From assembly GCA_947568835.1 (NCBI GenBank), contig OX387608.1:18806035-18870034 (forward strand): a stretch of DNA of 64,000 nt, given 5' to 3'. Shown here one piece after another: positions 3,643 through 64,000 of the stretch (position 1 is its first letter; each line of letters opens with the position of its first letter). Position numbers and translations under genes: made by a program. Source of the stretch: Protonemura montana. Lineage: Eukaryota > Arthropoda > Insecta > Plecoptera > Nemouridae. Below the pieces are notes generated by a model. The model made no database searches. It had not been told where the DNA came from and was given only the letters and a program-made list of their open reading frames with translations.

Positions 3643-6600
3643 TAGTCTAGGAATATCGACGGCAAAAAGGGGCGTGTCCGTATTCGGTGTTATATAAAGC
3701 TGAAATTTTGATATTATGTGCATAACACCATGACACAACTATTGTCACAAACCCGGACAAAAAATTTTCATCGGAAGACATTCAAAAAAATTATCAAAGT
3801 CAAAATTTCTTAAAAAATGAAAATTACTTAAAAGTTTAATAAGCATGTCATTTTTGAATTTATAAACGTCTAGTTTCCGCAGAAGCCTAGGCATTAATAC
3901 GTTATATCGATACCGTTTTTAAAAAACATCAAAAAGTTTTTACTAACCTATGACATGAGCCAAAAAGTAGCTAAAAAAACGCAAAAAAAATATATATACA
4001 ACTTTTCACTTAATTGCTCGGGACTAAATATTGGCCGAATGTTATAAAACGAGTTTGTAAAGATAGCTCAATTCATTGTCTACAAGACTGCAGATCTAAC
4101 TTTTTGAACACGTCAAGTTCACAACTGAGATTTTTGCTTTTCCCTACGAGAGGTAACTCTTGGCGCGCTGCCAAGCGCCGATAAGCCGTGCGGCTGGCTG
4201 GTAAATAGCATGCGTAGTTTGCTTTGAATGGCATACTAGCGTTGAGTGCGCAGGCTCATTGATACTACGTTAGGTCCGCACTTGATTTCATATTATTTAC
4301 CTAAAATTGGAGGCTTTTTGTTTTTTGTCTGTAAATTTGGTCTGTTTCTTGATTTTTACATAAAAAAAAAGTTATATATTCGTTTATATCAACCATACCT
4401 TACTCTGTTTTAACCACGTGCAGAGGTTTGAGGATCTACAGAATCCGAGATAATGATTTTCAATAAGACTGCGAACAGATTTGTCGAGGTATATCCACTT
4501 GACATGGGTTTCGATGGCTGGCAGGGTTAGTTTGCTGGCTTGCTAGTTAGTTTCCTACTCACTTTCAAAGCAGGACGACGAATATTATTGATAATTTCTG
4601 AAAATTCTCCCAAATATATGGAATGCAAATGGCATGAAGATAAATAACATGCGCGTAAACTCACTTGTTTACTCACTAATTCACTAGTTACTCAGCAATG
4701 ATTTTGTTTATTTGTGCAAGTGAAAAGATCGCCTACAAAACGGAATAACTAGCAATACGTATGGGTATGTAGTAATGCATGCTTCCTCATACTAGATCCA
4801 TGTTAACATGACAGTTAATTTTATTCACTATTTTCACTTAGCAGAGAAAACAGGAGATAGCTGCGAACCCTCCACTTGCAGAACAGAATCTAGAAAAATA
4901 ATTTCCACCACAGGTATTGGAAATTTTTTTCAGTTAGCGTTCCTAACCAGCGAGAATGTTCCTAATATAACAGAAAAGGGTCTAATAAGCAAAAGACAAT
5001 GATATTGCAAGAACAATAAATCAAGCAAGCAAGAAAGGGTATCAAATTTTTCCTTACAAATATCAAGGCAAGGAAGTTGCAGAGAGCAGTACACCAACAA
5101 AAAAAATATTGACATGGCAAAAAACGTAGGCTCGAGTCCCCTAACTTAAACAGAGGTGAAACACCACCCCCAAACAAACGGGTATTGCGTTCAACAATGC
5201 CAGAGTTTGACTGGAGCATATACCGTTTCATTATCCATCAATTAAGAGATACAAACAAGACAGGACGTAAAGTTTCTCTCGTTGACATGAATCCGGAGTC
5301 TCTTAGGGAAAATGTATTGAAAGCAACCAAAGAGAGAAATGACGAGGTAATTTTAAATCGAATGACATTCGGTTCCCTCTTTGAGGTAAACGCCAGCTAC
5401 CATGCAGATTGTTTGTCGAAATATCTGAGTGCTAACAGCATAGAGGCATGTAAAAAGGTCCAAACCGTCTCACAATACGATCGCGCTGCTGTCAACACAC
5501 AAGCGTTTATTTCGGATAAAATGAGGAGATGGAAAATTATACCAATTCCCAACGTTTGCGAAAAATACAGGGAATTCCTCATTGCTGAGGGTGTAGACAC
5601 TAAAGTGGCAAGTTCGTGTCACCTACAAGTATTTAATACACAATAAACTAATTAGCAACAGCAAAGACCAAACCATCTCATTCCACTATTGCACAGGAAA
5701 CCTCCCAGGCATCATGTGCTCAGATTTTCTTTCTATTGAGCTGTTATATCAGCAAAAACGGGATCAGTCGAGAAAAGCACCGGTGCACATCGGTTCATTC
5801 CTGTACACGAAATTGCATTGAAAATTGGGCTCCCAATAAGCATCGCTTTACCTGCAGCCCCATGCACTGTCCGGCTGTGACACTGTTTTAAACGTTTTTC
5901 GGAATCGGTAAAAAAAGGATCTGGCGTCAACTGAATAAAATGACCCGAGACGAGTTGTCACTTTTGGCCAATTTTTCAGACATTTTTGGAAAAGGTGAGC
6001 ACCGCTCGAAGTTTGGTGGTTAAATTGTACGATACAAACAAGAAATTCTGACAGTATAATTACTCGCTAAATGCGCTGCGTTTTAAGATAGCAGTGTCGC
6101 GACCTATCTCAATTGCCAAAATACTCCCGAGCGAAGGGGCATTTCATCAGCACCTTCGACGAGCTGCATGGCAATGTAGCACTTAGGTAAACTCGCACGT
6201 GCAATTTCCAAAAATGTGGCTTAAGTTTGCCAAAGTAATATTCAAAGCTATCAGAGGTTTTTGAACTAGAATTTAAATGTCGTCTCTATTTTTCTTCTTC
6301 TTATTATTTTTTTTATTATTTGTGGTGATAGGTCCCGAAGACAGTGGCTGGTGTCAGAGCCTGGGCAGAAAGTTTGTCTTACCTGTATATTTCGAGGGTC
6401 TAACAGCCATGGAAACGTTGCAAAATTTCAGTCAAGTCCAAGAAATCCTGCAGCATAAACCCCACTTGCACGTGCAATAGCAATGGAATTGGATGCATCG
6501 ACGTATGCAGGTGTGATAGGGAATGCTACAATGCCTATAGTGACATGATCGACAATGCCGACGAAGAAACGCTTCAATGATGTACGCACGCATGGATGTA

Positions 6601-7534: not shown

Positions 7535-9540
7535 TCTTGTTCGATTTCCTCCCATATAAGGTATAGTAAGCAGTCCTTTGGTTCTTAAATCTATCATACT
7601 TTCTCAATCTGTGGTCACTTCGATGTGAATATCACTGAAAATTGAGTTTGATATCGCTATTTTTTAGCTGTCTCAGAACATGTGTGAGAATGAAATATTT
7701 GCGTTCTCGTCATGTGGGGAAAGCCCAAATTTCCCGACACGATGAAAGAATGAATAATCCAACTGCTCGCAAACATTACCCGCAGTGGTTAATTTCTAAA
7801 AAAAAAAAAAGGTGGGTGGACGCTTGACGATCTTCTTTTGTGTGTGGGGTGGGGGGGGGGGGGGGGGGTAGCTCTTCTTGTTTTTTATAAGTAAATAGTG
7901 GAATCATTGGTTGATAGTTGTGGTTTATTGTCGGCAAAAATACTTTGTGTAACTAGGGTGTCACTTACCCGAAGAGGACGTATACATATTAGGATGAAAT
8001 CATTGGCCCTTATGGGTGAATTTTGCAAGACAGTGTTTCTGTCATTGGCGATTCCTATCCTGAATTTACTATATCTCAGCAAAAGTGACCTCTTCTTACA
8101 GTACATTTATGACCATCCCTACCCAAACTTTGGACTACAATTCTTGGGACGGCACTCTCAGTTACTGTTTAAAGCTAGTTCAAATTTCCACATCTCTCTA
8201 AGCCGCTAGCCTTTGAGTCGAGTGCCGAAAGCCGACAAAACAGCGAATGTATATGATACATACTAGGTATTCTGAATGTTGTTATTACAAAAAGGCACTA
8301 TGTGACCAGGAAAATGACAGAACAAGACTGAGGTAGTAACCAAAATTGCGATCCAAGGAACTGATATTGTAGTGACGGTGTCGATGTGCCCTTTGAGATT
8401 GTAAGGTTTCGCTTATCACAATAAAGAACGAAGCCAAGAGATAGGATGAAAACAATGATTTATTCAAAGAGATGTTAATCCGGCGGACCGGTGGTACATT
8501 CGGAGGACCGAAGTCAACTGCCTCTCCTTGGGGTCGCAGCCCTTTCGGATCGTCTCTGTCCCTACCTACCTGCCCCGGTGGAGGGACAGGTTACTAACCG
8601 CACAAAGTGGCGGGAACGTTACAAGATGCCCTAAGCGACGCCGGGCGTTAATCAAGAACTGCGTGAGATTACGTTTGCTTACATGGATTTTTTTATGCCA
8701 CTCATTCGCGCAATACGCAACTCAATTCACAGCAAATATCCATGTAGTTGTAATAATCCACCTTTCGCCATCCACTCAGAGTCCTCTAGAAGTCGATCAC
8801 TCTCACGCCTGACTCCACACATGTTGACAAATCTGACATCAACACCCAAATTGTAATTTCCCTTAACGTGACTCGTGCGTGCTTACCCGGCGACTTTGAA
8901 GATTTATATCGAGATGGATTTGAATATCGGATTCAAGTGCGTATCAAACCATGCATGACTTACTCCCACGAGCGCAACGGGCCAAACCTTTGCCCCGGTC
9001 AGGGAGCAAAGCTGACGAGGTTATTTTGCAAACGACACTAAATCCACTCAAAGATTGTGAAATTAGCGAATTTTTTTCATAAATCGCGCCAAGACTGTTC
9101 TGCACCTCAGGCGCATCCCTTTATTTAGACAGCTATTTGTCTTTTTTCTATCAGCAAATAAGATTTAATCCCGTCTTGGATTTTTCTCTTAGAAGCCAGC
9201 AGAAAAGCTTCGTTTTGACTCAGTTTAAGTCGGAAAAGACCCCGAAGGACGACATGGGTCTTGTCAACAAGGACATTATTCGTATGGGCACCAACGAAGT
9301 ACGGGTAATGTTTGCGAGCAGTTGCACTATTTTTTTTCCGTGTCGGGAAATTTGGGCTTTCTCCACATGACGAGAACGCAAATATTTCAGTCTCACACGT
9401 GTTCTAATAAAAAAAAAAATCAATAACAAATTCAATTATACACATCGATGTGGCTACAGGTTGAGTAAGGATGATAGATTTAGAGCATTGAGATCCAAGG
9501 GACTGCATATTATACTGTATAGGGGAGGAAATATATGGAC
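7535..9540. mobile_element. Old inverted-repeat-bounded segment (degraded element)
   Basis: 7535-7783 and about 9295-9540 are inverted, diverged copies. The shared stretches include TTTGCGTTCTCGTCATGTGG (7698-7717) and its complement near 9368, and AAATCTATCAT with its complement. The arms are about 250 bp. The interior (7790-9290) has no recognisable gene. It contains a G homopolymer near 7850-7868 and a segment at 8460-8640 of somewhat higher GC content. It is probably a decayed DNA transposon or two inverted insertions of one element; no TSD could be defined. Confidence 0.5.
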
Positions 9541-11625: not shown

Positions 11626-12565
11626 GGAATGTCGAAAATGTAGTAATGTAGTACCCTTTTAGCATTGGCCGGGTGTGTATTGCGAATGGTGCATATTGAA
11701 GGTAATTGTGAATGAAAACAAAGTGGAATGCTTACCTTGAGGCTTGATAAATCTTCATTTTTCTTCAATTTTCTGTCTGATAGTGTCTCTTCCTTTTTCT
11801 TGAAAAATAACCCCTGTTCTTTATATGCTTACTAAAACATTGCCGCGTAGACATGATCAAAGTCAGTTTCGGCCATTCACGAACCCACAAAAATCGCGTA
11901 AGTTTTCACGAGTATGACAAGGTAAACTCTGCAACATCTATCACTCCTACACGATTTGCCATGTGAAAATGCGCCAAATATAGTCAGCTGCTAAAGTGTG
12001 GGGGGGGGGGGGGGGAGAAAAAATGATTACTACTGAACTAAATTGTAATACCATCTAGCAGTCCAATACAGACATAGTTCTCTGCGGATATTTTTTATAA
12101 AACCACTTTGTGCCGCTTGAATTCGCTGTAAGTCTCTCATACCATGCATTCACGAACATGACCGTGTCACATTGAAGTTGTTGGGTGAGAAATTATGTCA
12201 AATCGCTAAATCTGGGCCTAGAATGTCATTAGGTATATTCTTTTCCACTAACCGGGCTGTCGATCGTCATTTTTACTTACAACGTTAATTACCGCTATTA
12301 TTTCTGTTGATTGTATATTTTAAAGCATAAAACTTAAAAATAAAACGTTATCCAGAAACCTACCAACATTTTTCAGATTTCGATTTTTTTTTAAAACAAT
12401 AAGTTGCAGAAAGAAAATCCCGCATTCAAAGATTAAATTCCAATTTTATAGCATACAAGTAAAGAACCTAAATGAGCCTGATGGTTAATTTCTCTTAAGA
12501 TTAAAAGTAACCATCGACAAGGATGAAATGGATTTCCTTGTTTCAATTCACAGACTCCATGTAAA
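11626..12565. repeat. L block of macrosatellite unit A, first part
   Basis: This roughly 0.94 kb non-coding block is almost identical to 27306-28265 and to 40256-41090 plus 45188-45325. It includes a G homopolymer of variable length between copies (12000-12015 here; interrupted at 27704-27720; 40660-40683). It follows the 5S array in every full unit. The uninterrupted copy in unit B gives the empty site for the retrotransposon that begins at about 12566. Confidence 0.8.
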
Positions 12566-15500
12566 CCAGGCTCGTAAACCTATCCGCATCAAGGTGTCAA
12601 CAAGAAAGAAGGTACTCTAAGAACTCTAAGAATTCGGTTGTAATTTTGCATCAAAATATTTGTAGCTTAGCCAATAAGATAGAAGAGCTTGAGTTATGCA
12701 TTGACATGATGGAAAGGCAGATAGACATTATATGTATATCTGAGCATTGGCTGTCTTTGAATCAATTTGACTCTATTGTTATTAATGACTTTGCTCTGGC
12801 CACATACTTTACAAGGAATGAGGCTAAGGGTGGGGGTGTAGCCATTTACACTAGAATGTCCAAAAACATACAGTATAAATCTAGACCTGACATTGCCAAG
12901 CTATCAGTGGTGAAATGTTTTGAAGTGTGTGCGATCCAACTACTTACACGCACTCCAGTAATAATTGTTACTATTTACAGAACACCTCAAGACACATTGC
13001 TTGGCAAGTTCATGTCAAAACTAGAAGTGTTATTCAGAAATATTAGTGATCACACTCCCAATAGTAATGTATGTATTATCGGCGACTTCAATGTTGACTT
13101 CAATACAGAATCTAATAAAAAAATTGAACTCATCAATTTAATGAACATGTATAACTTCAAGAGCAATATAGACGATTTTACAAGATGCACAACTAATTCG
13201 TCAACAATTATTGACAATGTACTAACTAATTTTAAGCTCTGCACTAAGCCTATTAATGTAGTCACTGCACTATCTGATCATTTTGGACAGATGGTAACAG
13301 TACCTTACGTAATGGATAATTGTGTTGCAGTACCGAAACCCGTTAAACATGTTACTCGCAGAGTTTTCAAAGACGCGAATATTATAGAATTTATTCACGA
13401 CATCAGTATTGAAAGTTGGCTTGAAGTATTGCAATCTCAGTCAACGAACCAAAAGTTTGATAGTTTCTTAAAAACATTCCTAATGTACTTCGATAAACAT
13501 TTCCCCAAGAAGTCAATCACTATTCAAAATAGATCTAGACCTGCGTGGATAACGGAGCAACTGAAAGAAATGACCCGGGTTAAACGTAGACTTTATAGTG
13601 AAAGCAAAATTAATAGCTCACATGAATTTAAGATTAAATTCAAGATGTACAAAAAAAAACTAGCTAAAGATATTGCTAACGCTAAAAGAGAGTTCAATGA
13701 TAACTTCATTGTTAATGCTGACAACAAAATAAAGGCAACTTGGAAGGTAATTAATACGACCAGGGGCGAAGGAAGTACTAGAAATGCGGATAGAGATATC
13801 AAGTTATCTATAAACAACAAGGAGATCACTAACCATACCGAGGTTGCTGAAGCTTTCAATACTTACTATAATTCAATAGCACATTCAATAATAGACTATA
13901 ATATTGATACTTCAACTGAGTGCCACAATAAATTATCTAATATGTGTACGAAGGTTACTGTTGGTAACAGTATGACACTGGAAAGCACAACACCAGCGGA
14001 GATTATTGAAGTAATAAGCAAACTAAAATCTAAGAAAAGTTCAGGCTGGGATGAGGTGCCGATAGATATTCTAAAGCACAGCTCTCGATTTATAGCGTTA
14101 CCCATTGCCGACATTTGTAATATGTCGTTCAGTGAAGGGGTGTTTCCTGATAAACTTAAATACGCCATAATTAAACCTTTGTTTAAAAAGGGAAAGAAAA
14201 ACAACATGTCAAATTATAGACCATTGGCCTTACTCCCCACATTTTCAAAAATATTGGAGAAGACATTTTTGAGGAGATTAATGTACTTTCTCAAAAAAAA
14301 TTCAATATTATATGAGGGACAGCATGGATTCAGAGAAAACCATTCCACGACATCAGCCACACATGACCTATTGAACTCTGTTAATGATGGCTTAAATAAC
14401 AATGAGATTACCGCTACAATCCTATGTGATTTATCTAAGGCCTTTGACACTATTGACAGCAAACTCTTAATTATGAAATTAGAGTACTATGGTATACACA
14501 ATGAGGCTTTACATTGGATTTCCTCCTACCTCTCATTAAGGAAACATAGGGTAGATATTCTAAATAACTATAATAGTAGTATGAGCCATGTTGCTAGTTC
14601 ATCATGGGCTAGTTCTAATAACGGACTCCCACAGGGTGCTATCCTATCACCAATTTTATTTTGTATTTATGTAAATGACTTGCCGGCCAATATTCCTGAC
14701 GGTGTAAAAATCGTGCAATACGCCGATGATACTAGCTTAGTAGTTAGAGGTAATACTGATATAGAATTCAGAAATAATATAAGAAATGTAGTTGTAGAAC
14801 TTGATGCATGGTTCACTGCCAACAAGCTTAAATTAAACTGCGAGAAAACATATCTTATTCGTTATAAAGCCCAAGGTAATTGTAAGGAGGAGCCGATTAT
14901 TGTTAATGATGCACCTCTATCATTTGTAGAATGCACCAAGTTCCTAGGTATCTCAGTGGACCATCGACTCAAGTGGGGGAATCATATTACCAACTTATGC
15001 AAGCAACTAAGCGCCGAGTGCTATAAATTTTATCAACTAGTCAAACATTGTAGTCATAAAACAGCACTTCTAGTGTATTTCGCTCAAGTGCAAAGCAGGT
15101 TACAATATGGTTTGAGATTCTGGGGGAATGCAGTAAATGTAAAAAAGGTGTTTTTGTACCAAAAAAGAATAATAAGAATTCTTACTAGAGCATCATATAG
15201 AGAATCTTGTAGATTACTTTTTGAAAAGCTCAACGTTTTAACGCTGTCAGAATTGTATATCCTAGATATTGTAATGGTTGTATTTGACAATCAGTCGCTT
15301 TTTATATCTAATGACACTGTACATAATTTTAATACTAGACAAAGATTGAAATATCATCCGACACCTCTACATCCAAGACTTACCGATTATGACCCTATGA
15401 ATATGGGAGTCAAAATATGCAACCATTTACCAATTAGTATCAGGGTATCAAACGACGGTAGAAGAGCGTCAAGAAATATCTTTAAACATGAGGTAAAAAT

Positions 15501-15761
15501 TTTCTTATCCAAACATTGTTTTTATACACTGGATGAATTTTTTAACACTACTTTTTAATATGACAAGCTTCAATAAGTTCATTAGTATTTCAGTAGTGTA
15601 ATATAAGCTGTGTAAACAAAGATCATAAGTTAGATTAGAATATTATATCATATGGATTATCATTTATATCATATTTTATCATGTGCTGATGCACTATGTC
15701 TGTACACCAGCATTTCCCATCTAATGTAATGGTTTTGATGACAATAAACAACAATACAAAT
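12566..15761 (+). mobile_element. Jockey/CR1-group non-LTR retrotransposon inserted in unit A
   Basis: The insertion is shown directly by the empty site: units B (28262-28285) and D (near 45335) read through GTCCATGTAAACATTTGGTA, whereas here about 3.2 kb separates the two halves. The element carries one long ORF (12646-15558) and an AATAAA (15743-15748), and it ends in an A-rich ACAACAATACAAAT-like tail. It has no LTRs and only a few bases of possible TSD. No ORF1 (gag-like) precedes the ORF; only about 80 bases lie upstream, so the copy is probably 5'-truncated. The open frame and the absence of this insertion from the other units suggest a recent event. Confidence 0.92.
12646..15558 (+). 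CDS. Non-LTR retrotransposon ORF2: AP endonuclease plus reverse transcriptase
   Basis: This encodes a 970-residue protein for target-primed reverse transcription: the endonuclease nicks chromosomal DNA and the RT copies the element RNA from the nick. The N-terminal APE-type endonuclease spans about residues 1-215, with HQNICSL (2-8), catalytic SEHW (E33), GDFNVD (146-151) and SDH (210-212). RT motifs follow: DLSKAFD (D595, D601), LPQGAILSP (from 661) and YADD (692-695, the catalytic aspartates). The C-terminal region ends in an NTR box and CFYTLDEFF, typical of arthropod-style jockey/CR1 ORF2s. There is no RNase H domain. The quoted first codon is TTG and the frame stays open upstream to the element edge, so the true N-terminus may be a few tens of residues longer. 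No internal stop or frameshift is seen, so the protein may be functional, although the missing ORF1 would make the copy non-autonomous. Confidence 0.93.
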   Translation: MHQNICSLANKIEELELCIDMMERQIDIICISEHWLSLNQFDSIVINDFALATYFTRNEAKGGGVAIYTRMSKNIQYKSRPDIAKLSVVKCFEVCAIQLLTRTPVIIVTIYRTPQDTLLGKFMSKLEVLFRNISDHTPNSNVCIIGDFNVDFNTESNKKIELINLMNMYNFKSNIDDFTRCTTNSSTIIDNVLTNFKLCTKPINVVTALSDHFGQMVTVPYVMDNCVAVPKPVKHVTRRVFKDANIIEFIHDISIESWLEVLQSQSTNQKFDSFLKTFLMYFDKHFPKKSITIQNRSRPAWITEQLKEMTRVKRRLYSESKINSSHEFKIKFKMYKKKLAKDIANAKREFNDNFIVNADNKIKATWKVINTTRGEGSTRNADRDIKLSINNKEITNHTEVAEAFNTYYNSIAHSIIDYNIDTSTECHNKLSNMCTKVTVGNSMTLESTTPAEIIEVISKLKSKKSSGWDEVPIDILKHSSRFIALPIADICNMSFSEGVFPDKLKYAIIKPLFKKGKKNNMSNYRPLALLPTFSKILEKTFLRRLMYFLKKNSILYEGQHGFRENHSTTSATHDLLNSVNDGLNNNEITATILCDLSKAFDTIDSKLLIMKLEYYGIHNEALHWISSYLSLRKHRVDILNNYNSSMSHVASSSWASSNNGLPQGAILSPILFCIYVNDLPANIPDGVKIVQYADDTSLVVRGNTDIEFRNNIRNVVVELDAWFTANKLKLNCEKTYLIRYKAQGNCKEEPIIVNDAPLSFVECTKFLGISVDHRLKWGNHITNLCKQLSAECYKFYQLVKHCSHKTALLVYFAQVQSRLQYGLRFWGNAVNVKKVFLYQKRIIRILTRASYRESCRLLFEKLNVLTLSELYILDIVMVVFDNQSLFISNDTVHNFNTRQRLKYHPTPLHPRLTDYDPMNMGVKICNHLPISIRVSNDGRRASRNIFKHEVKIFLSKHCFYTLDEFFNTTF

Positions 15762-17236: not shown

Positions 17237-17715
17237 GAAACCTAACCTAAGTCTTTCTTTATGGTAGAAGCAAGTACTTGACGCTAGTAAAGAGCTTTGC
17301 AAGTCAAGGCATGCAGTGATTTGAAAGGGTTTCAGATTTATTCAAGCAATAACAAAGCAAACAACTCGATGCGTGTTGTGAGTAGGCGCTGGTTTGAACC
17401 CTGGAAACATGTTATGCTAGAATATTATCATAAAGTGAATCTGTAAAAACTGAGCCGCGATCAAACCAAATCAAACTCTGTTATTTGTGGATCAACAATA
17501 ATCAATGAACTTCAATCAATAAACTTTCCAGTCTAGCTTCCTGTCCATCATACGCTTGCTGGTTTAAGCTCCCTAGTGGAAATGCCAGAAAATCAAAAAA
17601 CACTGCAAAAATAGTACTTTAATTATTATTTCGATTAGATTGGTCAATGTCCCTATCAGTCAGAGGAAATAATCCCAACTGGTAAGATGAGTTACTGCCT
17701 GCAAAACTTATATCT
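17237..17715. other. Conserved macrosatellite spacer before the tRNA-Gly-like sequence
   Basis: No gene. The roughly 480 bp are nearly identical to 29021-29498 and 46062-46538. There is no open frame of interest. Confidence 0.6.
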
Positions 17716-17786
17716 GCAGCGGTGGTTCAGTGGTAGAATGCTCGCCTGCGACGCGGGCGGCCCGGGTTCGATTCCCAGCCAATGCA
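17716..17786 (+). tRNA. tRNA-Gly-like sequence with anticodon GCG (probable pseudogene)
   Basis: This 71-base sequence has the body of nuclear tRNA-Gly: A box GGTGGTTCAGTGG, anticodon stem CTCGC/GCGGG, and B box GGTTCGATTCC. The anticodon loop reads CTGCGAC, giving GCG (17748-17750) instead of GCC, which would read an arginine codon while keeping a glycine body. The acceptor stem has two mismatches (bases 4 and 5 against CCAATGC) and the T stem has one. A T5 run follows directly. The unit B copy keeps GCC, so the anticodon change arose within the repeat family. It is probably not an active tRNA, but both pol III boxes look intact. Confidence 0.75.
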
Positions 17787-17788
17787 AC

Positions 17789-17793
17789 TTTTT
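17789..17793 (+). terminator. Pol III terminator T5 after tRNA-Gly-like sequence
   Basis: TTTTT begins two bases after the tRNA discriminator region. The same run is present in units B and D. Confidence 0.6.
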
Positions 17794-17988
17794 GAATTTT
17801 ATTTTCTCTTGCAATATTGCATACATCAACGAGGCTACTTTTTATTTCCTATAAAATCATATATATTTTTTATTTGCCCTTTTTTGAAAGCACATTCGCT
17901 ATGCTGCTGGTTCTAAATTAGACACTCATTTCTATTTCTACATATCTGGACAGTGATTGTACAAAATTATATATCACATCACCATTAA

Positions 17989-18328
17989 GTCAGGATGGCC
18001 GAGCGGTCTAAGGCGCTGCGTTCAGGTCGCAGTCCTCCTCGGAGGGCGTGGGTTCAGATCGTGTTGATCTGATGATCAGTGAGTTAAGCAACACTGCGCT
18101 AGTTCAGGTATTGGATGGGTGACCATCGTACCCATGACTTGATCTGTTCGGGAAAGAGGTTGGAGGGATGAAAGTTAAGCAACACTGCGCTGGGCCATCA
18201 ATGGATGGGTGACCATCAAACACATGACCAGATCGGGAGAGAGGTTGGGGGGGATGGAAGTTAGCAACACTGCACTGGGTCAGGTATTGGATGGGTGACC
18301 ATGACCTGACCCTGCGCAGTGTGGTTTT
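17989..18328 (+). ncRNA. tRNA-Leu(CAG)/5S rRNA chimera, candidate pol III transcript (unit A)
   Basis: 17989-18055 is a tRNA-Leu from GTCAGGATGGCCGAGCGGTC through the CAG anticodon (18023-18025) and long variable arm to the T loop. At GGGTTCAGATC the tRNA stops and 5S-like sequence takes over in the same orientation (GTTGATCTGATGATCAGTG, then AGTTAAGCAAC and TTGGATGGGTGACC). The tRNA 3' acceptor strand is missing, so no mature tRNA could form. Two more plus-strand 5S modules follow (about 18171 and 18260), then an inverted half module. The tRNA A box and the 5S box A/C sets are present. No run of four T occurs before 18325-18328, so a transcript starting at the tRNA would be about 340 nt. The same chimera is in units B and D. 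Confidence 0.75.
18268..18328 (+). terminator. Hairpin plus T4 at the end of the tRNA-Leu/5S chimera
   Basis: CACTGCACTGGGTCAGGT pairs with ACCTGACCCTGCGCAGTG (16 of 18 positions) around an 18-base loop containing 5S box C. TTTT follows at 18325-18328. The hairpin arises from a head-to-head junction of 5S modules. Confidence 0.5.
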
Positions 18329-18631
18329 ATTCTTATCCCTTCAACCTCTAGGCATGTCGAATTGCATCCACCTCACTCAGGTAGGTAAGCTTACGAGAAT
18401 TGAAGACGTCGCTTGATTATTCCCATTCATAACAACGTCGAGTGTTTTTGGATGTAATGAGGAACTTTCAGAAGAGACCCCAATGTGTTTAAACGATTGT
18501 ATAATCGTGTTTGTCGTGGTTATAATAATTATATATTTATGCAGAAACTGTGGAATGGGTTAAATTCTATGATTTTTTCATGCCTTATTATTGCCGCCTT
18601 ATTTTGAGAAGGTTCCATGGCTTGTTTTCAG

Positions 18632-18800
18632 GGCCGCGAGCGCACTCTCTTGGCGCTCTTTACAACTGACAATACGAGAAACACTCGCCGCTGCGCTAGT
18701 GTAGCACGTAGTGTAACAACGTTTTAGAACGATCGAGAACACTGGGACTAGTTTGCTACGCGCGGGAAGGGAAGGGTCGCTCACATAGCTGTAACCAACG
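18632..18800 (+). other. Candidate exon E2 (unit A)
   Basis: It is bounded by a polypyrimidine tract and TTGTTTTCAG on the left and by CCAACG|GTAAGA on the right, both canonical splice sites. The sequence starts GGCCGCGAGCGCACTC. Nine other copies (30415, 47454, 48788, 50128, 51468, 52426, 53766, 54724, 56064) keep the AG acceptor and the GTAAG donor. No shared open frame is evident. The exon status is inferred from splice-site conservation only. Confidence 0.45.
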
Positions 18801-29020: not shown

Positions 29021-29498
29021 AACCTAACCTAAGTCTTTCTTTATGGTAGAAGCAAGTACTTGACGCTAGTAAAGAGCTTTGCAAGTCAAGGCATGCAGTG
29101 ATTTGAAAGGGTTTCAGATTTATTCAAGCAATAACAAAGCAAACAACGCGATGCGTGTTGTGAGTAGGCGCTGGTTTGAACCCTGGAAACATGTTATGCT
29201 AGAATATTATCATAAAGTGAATCTGTAAAAACTTGAGCCGCGATCAAACCAAATCAAACTCTGTTATTTGTGGATCAACAATAATCAATGAACTTCAATC
29301 AATAAACTTTCCAGTCTAGCTTCCTGTCCATCATACGCTTGCTGGTTTAAGCTCCTTAGTGGAAATGCCAGAAAATCAAAAAACACTGCAAAAATAGTAC
29401 TTTAATTATTATTTAGATTAGATTGGTCAATGTCCCTATCAGTCAGAGGAAATAATCCCAACTGGTAAGATGAGTTACTGCCTGCAAAGCTTATATCT

Positions 29499-29569
29499 GC
29501 AGCGGTGGTTCAGTGGTAGAATGCTCGCCTGCCACGCGGGCGGCCCGGGTTCGATTCCCAGCCAATGCA
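29499..29569 (+). tRNA. tRNA-Gly(GCC)-like sequence (unit B)
   Basis: Same sequence as the unit A copy, except that the anticodon loop is CTGCCAC, giving the expected GCC (29531-29533). The acceptor-stem and T-stem mismatches are present here too, so cloverleaf stability is doubtful even with the right anticodon. T5 follows. This is probably the ancestral state of the repeat-borne tRNA-Gly. Confidence 0.75.
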
Positions 29570-29771
29570 ACTTTTTGAATTTTATTTTCTCTTGCAATAT
29601 TGCATACATCAACGAGGCTACTTTTTATTTCCTATAAAATCATATATATTTTTTATTTGCCCTTTTTTGAAAGCACATTCGCTATGCTGCTGGTTCTAAA
29701 TTAGACACTCATTTCTATTTCTACATATCTGGACAGTGATTGTACAAAATTATATATAACATCACCATTAA

Positions 29772-30111
29772 GTCAGGATGGCCGAGCGGTCTAAGGCGCT
29801 GCGTTCAGGTCGCAGTCCTCCTCGGAGGGCGTGGGTTCAGATCGTGTTGATCTGATGATCAGTGAGTTAAGCAACACTGCGCTAGTTCAGGTATTGGATG
29901 GGTGACCATCGTACCCATGACTTGTTCTGTTCGGGAAAGAGGTTGGAGGGATGAAAGTTAAGCAACACTGCGCTGGGCCATCAATGGATGGGTGACCATC
30001 AAACACATGACCAGATCGGGAGAGAGGTTGGGGGGGATGGAAGTTACCAACACTGCACTGGGTCAGGTATTGGATGGGTGACTATGACCTGACCCTGCGC
30101 AGTGTGGTTTT
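29772..30111 (+). ncRNA. tRNA-Leu(CAG)/5S rRNA chimera (unit B)
   Basis: Nearly identical to the unit A chimera at 17989-18328, with the same junction in the T loop and the same downstream 5S modules. The inverted half module and T4 lie at 30108-30111. Confidence 0.75.
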
Positions 30112-32965: not shown

Positions 32966-35825
32966 CGTAGTCACCCATCCAATACCTGACCCAGCTCAGT
33001 GTTGCTTAACATTCATCCATCCAACCTCTCTCCCGTACAGAACTGGCAATGTTTGTATTATAGCCATCAATCCAATACCTGACTCAGCGCAGTGTTGCTA
33101 AACTTTTATCCCTCCAACCTCTCTCCCGTACAGAACTGGTACGGCGGTTACCCATCCAATACCTGATCCAGCGTAGTGTTGCTAAACTTGCATCCCTCCA
33201 ACCTGTCTCCCAAATAGAGCTGATGGTATGTGTGATCCAATACCTGACCCTGTGCAGTGTTCCTCAACTTTCTTCCATCCAACCTCTCTCCCAAATAGAA
33301 CTAGTCGTGTGTTTGATGGTCCCCCATCCAATTCCTGAGCTAACGCAGTGTTGCATGACTTTCATCCCTCCAACTTACCTCTCTCCCAAAAGGAAATTGT
33401 CTTGTGTATGATGGTTATCCATCCAAAACCTGACCGAGAACAGTGTTGCTTTACTTTTATCCCTCCAACCTCTCTCCCAAACAGAACTGATCATGTGTAA
33501 GATGTTCACCCATCTAATACCTGACTCAGCGCAGTGTTGCATAACTTTTATCTCTCCAACCTCTCTCCCGTACAGAACTGGTCTGGCGGTTACCCATCCA
33601 ATACCTGACCAAGCGTAGTGTTGCCTAACTTGCATCCCTCCAACCTCTCCTAAATAGGACTGGACATGTGTATGATGGTCACCCATTCCTAACCTGACCC
33701 AGCGCAGTGTTGCTTTACTTTCATCCCTCCAACCTCTCTCCCGTACAGAACTGGTCTGGCGGTTACCCATCCAATACCTGACCCAGCGTAGTGTTGCTTA
33801 ACTTGCATCCCTCCAACCTCTCTCCCAAACAAAACTGGTCATGTATTTGATATTCACCCATCCAATACCTGAACCAGCGCAGTGCTGCTTAACTTTCACC
33901 CTCCAACCTCTCTCCCAAATAAAACGGGTCAAGTGTATGGTGGTCAGCCACCCTAAACCTGACCCAACGAAGTGTTGCTTGACTTTCATCCCTCCAACTT
34001 ACCTCTCTCAAAAATAAATGGTCATGTGTATGATGGTTATCCATCCAAAACCTGACCGAGAACAGTGTTATTTACTTTCATCCCTCCAACCCTTTTCCCG
34101 AACAGAACTGATCATGTGTATGATGGTCACCCATCTAATACCGGACTCAGCGCAGTGTTGCAATACTTTCATCCCTCCAACCTCTCTCCTGAACAGAACT
34201 GGCCGTGTGTTCGATGGTCACTCATCTTATGCCTGACCCAGCACTGTGTTCCTTAACTTTCATCCCTCCAATCTCTCTCACGAACAGAACTGGTAATGTG
34301 AATTATGGTCACCCATCCAATACCTGACCCAGCGCAGTGTTGCTTAACTTTCGTTCCTCCAACCTCTCCCAAATAGGACTGGACATGTATCTGATGGTCA
34401 CCCATCTTATACCTGACCATGCGCAGTGTTCCTTGACTTTCATCCCTCCAACTAACCTCTCTCCCTAAAAGAAATGGTCATGTGTATGATGGTCATCCAT
34501 TTAAAACCTGACCCAGAACAGTGTTGCTTTATTTTCATCCCTCCAACCTCTCCTCCGGACAGAATTGCTTATGTGTATGATGGTCATCCATCCAATACCT
34601 GACCCAGCGCAGTGTTGCTTAACTTTCATCCCTCCAACCTCTCTCCCGTATAAAACTGGTCTGGCGGTTACCCATCCAACACATGACCCAGCGTAGTGTT
34701 GCTTAACTTGCATCCCTCCAACCTCTCTCCCTAACAGAACTGGTCATTTGTGTGATGGTCACCCATCCAATTCCCGTCTCAGCGCAGTGTTGCTTAATTT
34801 GCATCCCTCCAACCTCTCTCCTGAATTGAACTTATCATGTGTATGATGGTCACCCATCTAATACCCGACTCAGCGCAGTGTTGCTTTACTTTCAACCCTC
34901 CAACCTCTCTCCCGTACAGAACCGGTCTAGCGGTTACCCATCCAATACTTGATCCAGCGTAGTGTTGCTTAACTTTCGTTCCTCCAACCTCTCCCAAATA
35001 GGACTGGACATGTATATGATGGTCACCCATCTTATACCTGACCATGCGCAGTGTTCCTTGACTTTCATCCCTCCAACTAACCTCTCTCCCAAATAGAACA
35101 GTCGTGTGTTTGATGGTCCCCCATCCAATTCCTGAGCTAACGCAGTGTTGCATGACTTTCATCCCTCCAACTTACCTCTCTCCCAAAAAGAAATTGTCAT
35201 GTGTATGATGGTTATCTATCCAAAACCTGACCGAGAACAGTGTTGCTTTACTTTTATCCCTCCAACCTCTCTCCCGAACAGAACTGATCATGTGTAAGAT
35301 GTTCACCCATCTAATACCAGACTCGGCGCAGTGTTGCATAACTTTTATCCCTCCAACCTCTCTCCCGTACAGAACTGGTCTGGCGGTTACCCATCCAATA
35401 CCTGACCCAGCGTAGTGTTGCCTAACTTGCATCCCTCCAACCTCTCCTAAATAGGACTGGACATGTGTATGATGGTCACCCATCCTATACCTGACCCAGC
35501 GCAGTGTTGCTTTACTTTCATCCCTCCAACCTCTCTCCCGTACAGAACTGGTCTGGCGGTTACCCATCCAATACCTGACCCAGCGTAGTGTTGCTTAACT
35601 TGCATCCCTCCAACCTCTCTCCCAAACAAAACTGGTCATGTATTCGATATTTACCCATCCAATACCTGAACCAGCGCAGTGCTACTTAACTTTCACCCTC
35701 CAACCTCTCTCCCAAGTAAAACGGGTCAAGTGTATGGTGGTCAGCCACCCTAAACCTGACCCAACGAAGTGTTGCTTGACTTTCATCCCTCCAACTTACC
35801 TTTCTCAAAAATAAACGGTCATGTA
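32966..35825 (-). repeat. 5S rRNA-derived satellite array 4
   Basis: About 32 monomers of the 84/91 bp family, 5S sense on the minus strand. Blocks match array 3: 33798-34256 corresponds to 24094-24552. The array stops abruptly at about 35825 in the middle of a monomer, fused to 41 bp satellite. Confidence 0.85.
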
Positions 35826-42720: not shown

Positions 42721-42755
<35 letters not shown>

Positions 42756-46061: not shown

Positions 46062-46538
46062 AACCTAACCTAAGTCTTTCTTTATGGTAGAAGCAAGTAC
46101 TTGACGCTAGTAAAGAGCTTTGCAAGTCAAGGCATGCAGTGATTTGAAAGGGTTTCAGATTTATTCAAGCAATAACAAAGCAAACAACGCGATGCGTGTT
46201 GTAAGTAGGCGCTGGTTTGAACCCTGGAAACATGTTAAGCTAGAATATTATCATAAAGTGAATCTGTAAAAACTGAGCCGCGATCAAACCAAATCAAACT
46301 CTGTTATTTGTGGATCAACAATAATCAATGAACTTCAATCAATAAACTTTCCAGTCTAGCTTCCTGTCCATCATACGCTTGCTGGTTTAAGCTCCCTAGT
46401 GGAAATGCCAGAAAATCAAAAAACACTGCAAAAATAGTACTTTAATTATTATTTCGATTAGATTGGTCAATGTCCCTATCAGTCAGAGGAAATAATCCCA
46501 ACTGGTAAGATGAGTTACTGCCTGCAAAACTTATATCT

Positions 46539-46609
46539 GCAGCGGTGGTTCAGTGGTAGAATGCTCGCCTGCGACGCGGGCGGCCCGGGTTCGATTCCCA
46601 GCCAATGCA
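46539..46609 (+). tRNA. tRNA-Gly-like sequence with anticodon GCG (unit D)
   Basis: Identical in form to the unit A copy, including anticodon GCG (46571-46573) and the same stem mismatches. T5 follows. Confidence 0.75.
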
Positions 46610-46811
46610 ACTTTTTGAATTTTATTTTCTCTTGCAATATTGCATACATCAACGAGGCTACTTTTTATTTCCTATAAAATCATATATATTTTTTATTTGC
46701 CCTTTTTTGAAAGCACATTCGCTATGCTGCTGGTTCTAAATTAGACACTCATTTCTATTTCTACATATCTGGACAGTGATTGTACAAAATTATATATCAC
46801 ATCACCATTAA

Positions 46812-47151
46812 GTCAGGATGGCCGAGCGGTCTAAGGCGCTGCGTTCAGGTCGCAGTCCTCCTCGGAGGGCGTGGGTTCAGATCGTGTTGATCTGATGATC
46901 AGTGAGTTAAGCAACACTGCGCTAGTTCAGGTATTGGATGGGTGACCATCGTACCCATGACTTGATCTGTTCGGGAAAGAGGTTGGAGGGATGAAAGTTA
47001 AGCAACACTGCGCTGGGCCATCAATGGATGGGTGACCATCAAACACATGACCAGATCGGGAGAGAGGTTGGGGGGGATGGAAGTTACCAACACTGCACTG
47101 GGTCAGGTATTGGATGGGTGACTATGACCTGACCCTGCGCAGTGTAGTTTT
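46812..47151 (+). ncRNA. tRNA-Leu(CAG)/5S rRNA chimera (unit D)
   Basis: Same architecture as 17989-18328. The tRNA A box, anticodon CAG and 5S modules are unchanged; T4 is at 47148-47151. Preservation of the chimera in all three full units fits either recent homogenisation or constraint. Confidence 0.75.
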
Positions 47152-61047: not shown

Positions 61048-64000
61048 GGTTTGGTTTGGTTTGGTTTGGTTTGGTTTGGTTTGGTTTGGTTTGGTTTGGT
61101 TTGGTTTGGTTTGGTTTGGTTTGGTTTGGTTTGGTTTGGTTTGGTTTGGTTTGGTTTGGTTTGGTTTGGTTTGGTTTGGTTTGGTTTGGTTTGGTTTGGT
61201 TTGGTTTGGTTTGGTTTGGTTTGGTTTGGTTTGGTTTGGTTTGGTTTGGTTTGGTTTGGTTTGGTTTGGTTTGGTTTGGTTTGGTTTGGTTTGGTTTGGT
61301 TTGGTTTGGTTTGGTTTGGTTTGGTTTGGTTTGGTTTGGTTTGGTTTGGTTTGGTTTGGTTTGGTTTGGTTTGGTTTGGTTTGGTTTGGTTTGGTTTGGT
61401 TTGGTTTGGTTTGGTTTGGTTTGGTTTGGTTTGGTTTGGTTTGGTTTGGTTTGGTTTGGTTTGGTTTGGTTTGGTTTGGTTTGGTTTGGTTTGGTTTGGT
61501 TTGGTTTGGTTTGGTTTGGTTTGGTTTGGTTTGGTTTGGTTTGGTTTGGTTTGGTTTGGTTTGGTTTGGTTTGGTTTGGTTTGGTTTGGTTTGGTTTGGT
61601 TTGGTTTGGTTTGGTTTGGTTTGGTTTGGTTTGGTTTGGTTTGGTTTGGTTTGGTTTGGTTTGGTTTGGTTTGGTTTGGTTTGGTTTGGTTTGGTTTGGT
61701 TTGGTTTGGTTTGGTTTGGTTTGGTTTGGTTTGGTTTGGTTTGGTTTGGTTTGGTTTGGTTTGGTTTGGTTTGGTTTGGTTTGGTTTGGTTTGGTTTGGT
61801 TTGGTTTGGTTTGGTTTGGTTTGGTTTGGTTTGGTTTGGTTTGGTTTGGTTTGGTTTGGTTTGGTTTGGTTTGGTTTGGTTTGGTTTGGTTTGGTTTGGT
61901 TTGGTTTGGTTTGGTTTGGTTTGGTTTGGTTTGGTTTGGTTTGGTTTGGTTTGGTTTGGTTTGGTTTGGTTTGGTTTGGTTTGGTTTGGTTTGGTTTGGT
62001 TTGGTTTGGTTTGGTTTGGTTTGGTTTGGTTTGGTTTGGTTTGGTTTGGTTTGGTTTGGTTTGGTTTGGTTTGGTTTGGTTTGGTTTGGTTTGGTTTGGT
62101 TTGGTTTGGTTTGGTTTGGTTTGGTTTGGTTTGGTTTGGTTTGGTTTGGTTTGGTTTGGTTTGGTTTGGTTTGGTTTGGTTTGGTTTGGTTTGGTTTGGT
62201 TTGGTTTGGTTTGGTTTGGTTTGGTTTGGTTTGGTTTGGTTTGGTTTGGTTTGGTTTGGTTTGGTTTGGTTTGGTTTGGTTTGGTTTGGTTTGGTTTGGT
62301 TTGGTTTGGTTTGGTTTGGTTTGGTTTGGTTTGGTTTGGTTTGGTTTGGTTTGGTTTGGTTTGGTTTGGTTTGGTTTGGTTTGGTTTGGTTTGGTTTGGT
62401 TTGGTTTGGTTTGGTTTGGTTTGGTTTGGTTTGGTTTGGTTTGGTTTGGTTTGGTTTGGTTTGGTTTGGTTTGGTTTGGTTTGGTTTGGTTTGGTTTGGT
62501 TTGGTTTGGTTTGGTTTGGTTTGGTTTGGTTTGGTTTGGTTTGGTTTGGTTTGGTTTGGTTTGGTTTGGTTTGGTTTGGTTTGGTTTGGTTTGGTTTGGT
62601 TTGGTTTGGTTTGGTTTGGTTTGGTTTGGTTTGGTTTGGTTTGGTTTGGTTTGGTTTGGTTTGGTTTGGTTTGGTTTGGTTTGGTTTGGTTTGGTTTGGT
62701 TTGGTTTGGTTTGGTTTGGTTTGGTTTGGTTTGGTTTGGTTTGGTTTGGTTTGGTTTGGTTTGGTTTGGTTTGGTTTGGTTTGGTTTGGTTTGGTTTGGT
62801 TTGGTTTGGTTTGGTTTGGTTTGGTTTGGTTTGGTTTGGTTTGGTTTGGTTTGGTTTGGTTTGGTTTGGTTTGGTTTGGTTTGGTTTGGTTTGGTTTGGT
62901 TTGGTTTGGTTTGGTTTGGTTTGGTTTGGTTTGGTTTGGTTTGGTTTGGTTTGGTTTGGTTTGGTTTGGTTTGGTTTGGTTTGGTTTGGTTTGGTTTGGT
63001 TTGGTTTGGTTTGGTTTGGTTTGGTTTGGTTTGGTTTGGTTTGGTTTGGTTTGGTTTGGTTTGGTTTGGTTTGGTTTGGTTTGGTTTGGTTTGGTTTGGT
63101 TTGGTTTGGTTTGGTTTGGTTTGGTTTGGTTTGGTTTGGTTTGGTTTGGTTTGGTTTGGTTTGGTTTGGTTTGGTTTGGTTTGGTTTGGTTTGGTTTGGT
63201 TTGGTTTGGTTTGGTTTGGTTTGGTTTGGTTTGGTTTGGTTTGGTTTGGTTTGGTTTGGTTTGGTTTGGTTTGGTTTGGTTTGGTTTGGTTTGGTTTGGT
63301 TTGGTTTGGTTTGGTTTGGTTTGGTTTGGTTTGGTTTGGTTTGGTTTGGTTTGGTTTGGTTTGGTTTGGTTTGGTTTGGTTTGGTTTGGTTTGGTTTGGT
63401 TTGGTTTGGTTTGGTTTGGTTTGGTTTGGTTTGGTTTGGTTTGGTTTGGTTTGGTTTGGTTTGGTTTGGTTTGGTTTGGTTTGGTTTGGTTTGGTTTGGT
63501 TTGGTTTGGTTTGGTTTGGTTTGGTTTGGTTTGGTTTGGTTTGGTTTGGTTTGGTTTGGTTTGGTTTGGTTTGGTTTGGTTTGGTTTGGTTTGGTTTGGT
63601 TTGGTTTGGTTTGGTTTGGTTTGGTTTGGTTTGGTTTGGTTTGGTTTGGTTTGGTTTGGTTTGGTTTGGTTTGGTTTGGTTTGGTTTGGTTTGGTTTGGT
63701 TTGGTTTGGTTTGGTTTGGTTTGGTTTGGTTTGGTTTGGTTTGGTTTGGTTTGGTTTGGTTTGGTTTGGTTTGGTTTGGTTTGGTTTGGTTTGGTTTGGT
63801 TTGGTTTGGTTTGGTTTGGTTTGGTTTGGTTTGGTTTGGTTTGGTTTGGTTTGGTTTGGTTTGGTTTGGTTTGGTTTGGTTTGGTTTGGTTTGGTTTGGT
63901 TTGGTTTGGTTTGGTTTGGTTTGGTTTGGTTTGGTTTGGTTTGGTTTGGTTTGGTTTGGTTTGGTTTGGTTTGGTTTGGTTTGGTTTGGTTTGGTTTGGT
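61048..64000 (+). repeat. (TTTGG)n array, about 590 perfect copies, to window end
   Basis: 2953 bp of uninterrupted 5 bp repeat with no variant seen. G-rich strand 5'->3' toward the window end. It could be a telomere-type array (arthropod canonical TTAGG differs by one base) or a simple satellite; the array continues past the window. Confidence 0.95.

Follow-up and report, generated by a model that had tools for sequence, protein, structure and literature searches.

Known combinations of tRNA and 5S rRNA sequences

Units that combine tRNA and 5S rRNA sequences are known in several forms. In the dicistronic tRNA-5S rRNA genes of Yarrowia lipolytica, a tRNA stands upstream of the 5S rRNA, in the same orientation and within one pol III unit; both RNAs, according to what Acker et al. 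reportedly described in 2008, are whole genes. The locus studied here shares this order and orientation, whereas its tRNA and 5S parts are both incomplete.

AmnSINE1 is a 5S/tRNA dimer. It is tabulated with a 5S head (PMC3747384), and HaSE3 of Helicoverpa has the same body and tail as a tRNA-derived SINE (PMC3272025). Like the chimera described below, these two elements (HaSE3 with its HaSE1 body) unite tRNA-SINE-derived and 5S-derived parts in one unit. Neither of them, however, is a truncated tRNA gene joined to a satellite, and our chimera bears no sign of retroposition.

HaSE3 and SINE3-1_TC of Tribolium represent the SINE3 class, with which the source of our 5S-like modules shares a 5S head with pol III boxes, a SINE body and target-site duplications. 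It differs from them in its 91-bp promoter part, which is repeated a variable number of times and places head and body 215 + 91k bp apart. The main text of the HaSE3 paper contains neither "tandem" nor "variable number" (PMC3272025), and no description of a 5S SINE with repeated promoter modules was found in the literature searched. Tandem repeats containing 5S-like sequence also make up PcP190, a 5S-derived satellite DNA of frogs described as having repeats of ~190 bp with a 120-bp 5S-like region; the unit here, in contrast, measures 91 bp and is derived from inside a SINE.

A truncated tRNA-Leu gene joined to 5S-like modules

The window, i.e. the 64,000-nt stretch of Protonemura montana DNA analyzed here, forms the right end of contig C11; the genome examined comprises 258 Mb in 34 contigs. 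The window terminates in GGTTT repeats (61048-64000). A TTTGG telomere is reportedly present in a leaf-beetle genus. Such a telomere is also described in the rice weevil (PMC12134996). Two other features of the window are a non-LTR retrotransposon, whose 997-aa open frame (12565-15558) encodes reverse transcriptase and endonuclease domains, and a run of 34 G inside a subtelomeric repeat (42721-42754), which is perhaps an assembly artefact.

Positions 17989-18055 (plus strand, as are all features of the chimera unless stated otherwise) correspond to nt 1-67 of a tRNA-Leu(CAG) gene, comprising the acceptor 5' strand, the D arm, the anticodon arm, the variable arm and the start of the T arm. The majority of the copies shows 0/67 differences from the intact gene on contig C3. 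The tRNA is truncated inside the T arm, after GGGTTC, and within the B box. Downstream of 18055 follow three 5S-like modules in the same orientation as the tRNA head, and a T4 at 18325-18328, which is the earliest TTTT in the unit. An earlier note on this DNA had described a tRNA-Leu(CAG) fused inside its B box to 5S sequence of the same orientation and followed by a T4, with copies of the same junction at 29772 and 46812, and our analysis bears this description out. A 25-nt probe from the tRNA-Leu head (up to 3 mismatches) matches the window three times, each time exactly, at 17989, 29772 and 46812, with 0 matches expected from 100 shuffles. The junction is identical in the three copies, of which the second and third span 29772-30111 and 46812-47151.

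The 11-mer TGGCCGAGCGG at 17996-18006, which we take to be the A box, is the same in 31/31 copies tallied (one of them, L047, was read at its foldback piece). The B box GGTTCAGATCG (18051-18061) is damaged, with 2 departures from GGTTCRANTCC, and no intact core of this consensus occurs within 17989-18700. No complete cloverleaf is recognized by ARAGORN at 17989, and the Rfam tRNA score is 18.8 bits versus a cut-off of 29.

A short palindrome, CAGATC-GTGTT-GATCTG, lies at the join (18055-18071) and forms a hairpin in the predicted fold. Most of it is contained in the junction stretch 18056-18081, whose alignment scores against the SINE head and the 5S head were reached by 499 and 645 of 2000 shuffles, respectively. 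The letters GGTT are common to the tRNA T arm and the start of the SINE, and GGTTC also occurs at nt 30-34 of 5S. Homology to 5S is certain only from ~18074 (5S nt ~41). Because the 26 nt before this point match no better than shuffles, the proposed start of the fusion at 5S position 27 is unproven; the two further modules and the T4 that had been noted behind it are present.

All three modules are closer to the 5S-derived SINE described below than module 1 is to the genome's 5S gene. Module 1 with a non-5S linker (18074-18175), 5S-like from ~5S nt 41, agrees with the SINE module at 80/88 positions and with the 5S gene at 42/50. Module 2 with its linker (18176-18258; 74/79 to the SINE module) is the site at which 10/30 parsed copies carry an extra module. 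Module 3 (18259-18310; 48/51 for 18260-18310) is partial and overlaps an inverted fragment of the 5S-SINE module on the minus strand (18304-18327); this fragment can pair with module 3, and the T run belongs to it. This fragment matches the reverse complement of the module at 21/24 positions, an alignment score reached by 0/1000 shuffles. Against the Rfam 5S model (RF00001), the 5S part of the chimera scores 16.2 bits, below the gathering score of 38.

The predicted fold of 18240-18328 (-37.2 kcal/mol, z -3.7 versus shuffles) contains a terminal hairpin (18263-18328) that ends in the TTTT at 18325-18328. The full 339-nt unit also folds better than shuffles (z -3.1), much of which is explained by the 3' hairpin; the tRNA end (17989-18082) folds no better than shuffles (z -0.5).

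Donor locus and copies at contig ends

The segment 17609-18055 (plus strand) is 88% identical to C3:19073773-19074229, part of an interior locus at 19.07 Mb that carries a tRNA-Gly and a tRNA-Leu gene. The homology ends at GGGTTC, and it stops there in 8/8 copies checked. The intact tRNA-Leu gene at C3:19074163 has a tRNA-Gly(GCC) gene ~200 bp upstream, at the same spacing as in the window, where the tRNA-Gly copy (17715-17788, plus strand; found by ARAGORN, Rfam 51.2 bits) has the anticodon GCG. Among 30 parsed copies, this anticodon is GCC in 22, GCG (Arg) in 7 and GCT (Ser) in 1. The tRNA-Gly copies of the window lie at 17715-17788, 29498-29571 and 46538-46611; across copies, the tRNA-Gly gene body (13/74 sites) and its 5' flank (7/30) vary more than their surroundings.

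In the whole genome, a 33-nt pattern spanning the junction is found at 31 places, 30 of them exact and one with a single mismatch. A 75-nt probe of head plus junction identifies 31 chimera places, 9 head-only places and 1 foldback piece (41 matches; best 40 of 51 candidates). ARAGORN recognizes intact tRNA-Leu(CAG) genes at eight of the nine head-only places; the ninth is degenerate. The chimera copies are spread over 10 contig ends, one of which is the 65-kb contig C28. All 31 lie 7.8-81.9 kb from a contig end and are oriented toward that end, and all can be aligned with one another from 17609 to ~18600, flanks included (8 of them also by BLAST). The dispersed copies, target duplications and individual flanks expected of a SINE are thus not seen in the chimera, since 31/31 copies are near contig ends and have shared flanks. 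Their shared flanks, position and orientation point to exchange between chromosome ends, not to retroposition, as the way in which they multiplied. Our script parsed 30 of the 31 copies correctly, and in all 30 the T4 is the first TTTT, at +336 to +434.

The 380 bp upstream of the chimera (17609-17988) were found at 32 subtelomeric places and on C3 (best 40 of 45 candidates). Thirty of these subtelomeric donor copies lead into a plain chimera. In another (L047, C16:17000-20000), the tRNA-Leu head contains a foldback insertion, and in the last (L087, C4:25819000-25821500; break copy at C4:25819835) the sequence switches to something else after 16 nt of the head. As the sole donor copy without the fusion, L087 was considered as an ancestral unfused copy, yet it breaks off inside the tRNA head, and this interpretation was rejected. 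Given these two further breaks, the tRNA-Leu head may be fragile.

The intact 3' half of tRNA-Leu occurs exactly at 8 places, all of them the intact genes, and at 7 others with a single mismatch. No such 3' half lies near a contig end, so that no reciprocal product of the break is found.

Most probably, the chimera is a rearrangement scar within a family of subtelomeric duplications. This reading is based on the C3 donor, with its matching tRNA-Gly/tRNA-Leu spacing, its 88% identity and the stop of homology at GGGTTC; on the missing reciprocal product and the outward-pointing position of 31/31 copies near contig ends; and on the two further rearrangements in the same tRNA-Leu head among the 32 donor copies. 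As homology shows, a segment of ~450 bp of the C3:19.07 Mb locus (the tRNA-Gly and 67 nt of the tRNA-Leu) was copied and became attached, at the T arm, to a tandem array of 5S-derived SINE modules. The two parts were probably linked by end joining at a few shared letters (GGTT or GGTTC), with a short palindrome as filler. The joined unit and its flanks would have been copied to 10 contig ends by chromosome-end exchange rather than retroposition. The A box came through unharmed, the B box was damaged, and the T4 sits within an inverted, mutated 5S-SINE module.

A 5S-derived SINE as source of the 5S-like modules

The 91-bp module is found at 33,516 places genome-wide (up to 3 mismatches); at 91 bp per place, these would add up to ~3 Mb, or 1.2% of the genome. 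SINE heads occur at 5,775 and bodies at 7,680 places in the genome. The interstitial arrays that we read mostly start with a 5S-like head and end with a common body, several being without one or the other. Head and body are 215, 306 or 397 bp apart (215 + 91k) in 7 of the 10 pairs read off, and 186, 199 and 214 bp apart in the remaining three. The elements finish in a short AAT- or AATC-rich tail. Target-site duplications of 13-15 nt were recognized on 4 of 13 elements with head and body, including one with 4 modules; the other nine gave no target duplication, and for one of these (L049) the locus ends before the tail.

Rfam detects 5S over model positions 1-120 at six element heads in the five loci scanned (46.3-63.5 bits), and has no 5S match for a degenerate 5S-like piece in L078. 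For comparison, the 5S genes of this genome score 108.7-117.5 bits (best 47 of 52,711 candidates). In a majority sequence of 4 copies, the SINE head agrees with the 5S gene at 68/74 aligned nt over 5S nt 17-92. The elements read (L048/L075, L078, L079, L080, L081, L086) contain from 1 to 19 copies of the module. Elements with a single module, taken as a majority sequence of 4 copies, have AAGTTA at either edge of the promoter part, the two occurrences lying exactly 91 bp apart, and this spacing would favour an expansion by slippage or unequal exchange.

Because of its 5S head in Rfam, the 215 + 91k spacing and the target duplications, we identify the source element as a 5S-derived SINE (SINE3 class) whose promoter part is a variable tandem repeat. 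The 5S part of the chimera comes from this SINE, because it contains the SINE linker, which has no counterpart in the 5S gene. In the window, the arrays consist of 85 minus-strand modules and 6 plus-strand modules, the latter all within the three chimeras. No probe for the SINE head or body matches the window at up to 6 mismatches, and the arrays therefore look like a module-only satellite.

Two other interpretations of the interstitial arrays were rejected. One was a retroposon whose open reading frame would lie behind the 5S arrays; in the six loci read, the longest frame (229 aa) lies over a minisatellite, and the sequence behind the 5S array is the SINE body. The other was a transposon with the 5S arrays as terminal inverted repeats, suggested by plus- and minus-strand arrays that are turned toward one another in L077 and L078; each of these arrays has its own head and body. 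These two loci are apparently opposite-orientation copies of a larger repeat, with similar outer flanks by eye and a 5S SINE on each side, facing inward.

As a separate observation, 5S genes are found at the opposite end of the window's contig (C11:1-106000), many of them in ~9.5-kb repeats in which two 5S genes share a strand and a third lies on the opposite one.

Conservation and possible transcription

It is also conceivable that the chimera is a working pol III gene, in which the A box, together with either the weakened B box or the 5S boxes, would drive an RNA of 336-434 nt toward the telomere, from many chromosome ends, ending at the hairpin and T4. We regard this as unlikely on the sequence features. 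The unchanged A box, the retention of T4 as first terminator in 30/30 parsed copies and the folding of the whole unit (z -3.1) and of its 3' end (z -3.7) are in its favour, terminator and unit fold counting against a mere scar. On the other side are the 2 departures of the B box, without an intact core in 17989-18700, and the 2/32 broken copies. The earlier proposal that the 5S boxes may have replaced the B box is not supported. The B box GGTTCAGATCG keeps 9/11 consensus positions, and module 1 has its 5S A-type box (AGTTAAGC) at +94 relative to the start of the tRNA, versus +50 in the 5S gene, so that nothing points to a joint promoter acting from the start of the tRNA. At +94, the box is too far away to act from the tRNA start as it does in 5S.

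Variation among copies was compared for 30 copies, L047 being left out, and p values are rough because sites are shared by descent. Variable sites number 2/67 in the head, 13/273 in the 5S part, 9/200 in the spacer, 23/272 downstream and 16/106 upstream. Head and 5S part together are less variable than all flanks (15/340 versus 48/578, p=0.03), which favours a working gene and counts against the scar reading; they are not less variable than the spacer alone (9/200, p=1.0). Taken singly, the 5S part differs from all flanks at p=0.065. Several comparisons were made for selection on the fused head, which was not clearly shown and is not adopted here (head versus all flanks, p=0.15).

Relative to the C3 locus, the head has 0/67 changes and the flanks have 32/305 (p=0.003), again an observation against the scar reading and for a working gene. 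Of the flank changes, 23/32 are concentrated within 30 nt upstream of either tRNA (23/60 versus 9/245). At the remaining flank rate, 1.2 changes would be expected in the head on the copy side, and the probability of observing none is 0.29.

Active tRNA genes characteristically have a variable 5' flank, as is reportedly discussed by Thornlow et al. in 2018. Among our copies, the 30 nt 5' of tRNA-Gly vary at 7/30 sites, those 5' of the chimera at 1/30 and those elsewhere at 17/246 (Gly versus rest, p=0.008; Gly versus Leu, p=0.05). If variable 5' flanks mark activity, this is a weak sign that the tRNA-Gly copies have been active since the amplification and the chimera has not; between C3 and the copies, the 5' flanks of both tRNAs differ alike (12/30 and 11/30).

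More improbable still is a farther-reaching proposal, by which about thirty chimeric pol III units at 10 contig ends, pointing endward, would make a structured RNA of 336-434 nt from the tRNA A box and the weakened B box, with 5S-SINE modules behind, and would represent a family of subtelomeric noncoding RNAs that originated in the break of a tRNA. The chimera may be at most weakly transcribed: some transcription by pol III is possible, and none is required by the findings.

Other origins of the fusion

The rearrangement reading also has to be weighed against a 5S-SINE that retroposed straight into the T loop of a tRNA-Leu copy, with loss of the 3' part afterwards. The 5S part is indeed SINE-derived and has the same orientation as the tRNA, and by eye CGTGTTG near the join resembles the SINE start GGCGTGTTGG. 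However, 499/2000 shuffles match the SINE head as well as the junction stretch does, the window has no match to the SINE head or body at up to 6 mismatches, and there is no tRNA 3' half beside the arrays and hence no target duplication. We consider such an insertion about as doubtful as a working gene.

A tRNA-targeting DNA transposon such as Dada-tL is a very improbable cause of the break. Dada-tL does use tRNA-Leu genes as insertion sites, and one-sided junctions can result (PMC3706591), but the target duplication described for Dada-tL_DR, GCGTTCA (PMC3706591), would in our tRNA fall within the anticodon arm. The break observed here follows GGGTTC in the T arm, and what adjoins it is a 5S-SINE module.

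That the chimera is the founder of the 5S repeats, as had been suggested earlier, is hardly credible and is contradicted by the SINE: chimera and arrays do have the same modules and linker, but the SINE heads retain a 5S start that is absent from the chimera (68/74 over nt 17-92; Rfam 1-120), 33,516 module places stand against 31 chimeras near contig ends, and an element recognizably 5S from nt 17 cannot stem, with its modules, from one that is so only from ~nt 41. The junction itself is real and well described; the new promoter and the founder role proposed for it are not supported.

Significance

The chimera is an example of a tRNA piece at a chromosome end that joined a SINE-derived satellite and was multiplied together with its flanks, and copies of one tRNA-Leu have here been broken three separate times. 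More interesting than the junction is the SINE with a repeated 5S promoter. Through it, a 5S-like satellite can be traced back to a SINE whose promoter part became a variable tandem repeat, and the steps leading from retroposon to satellite can be tested within a single genome.
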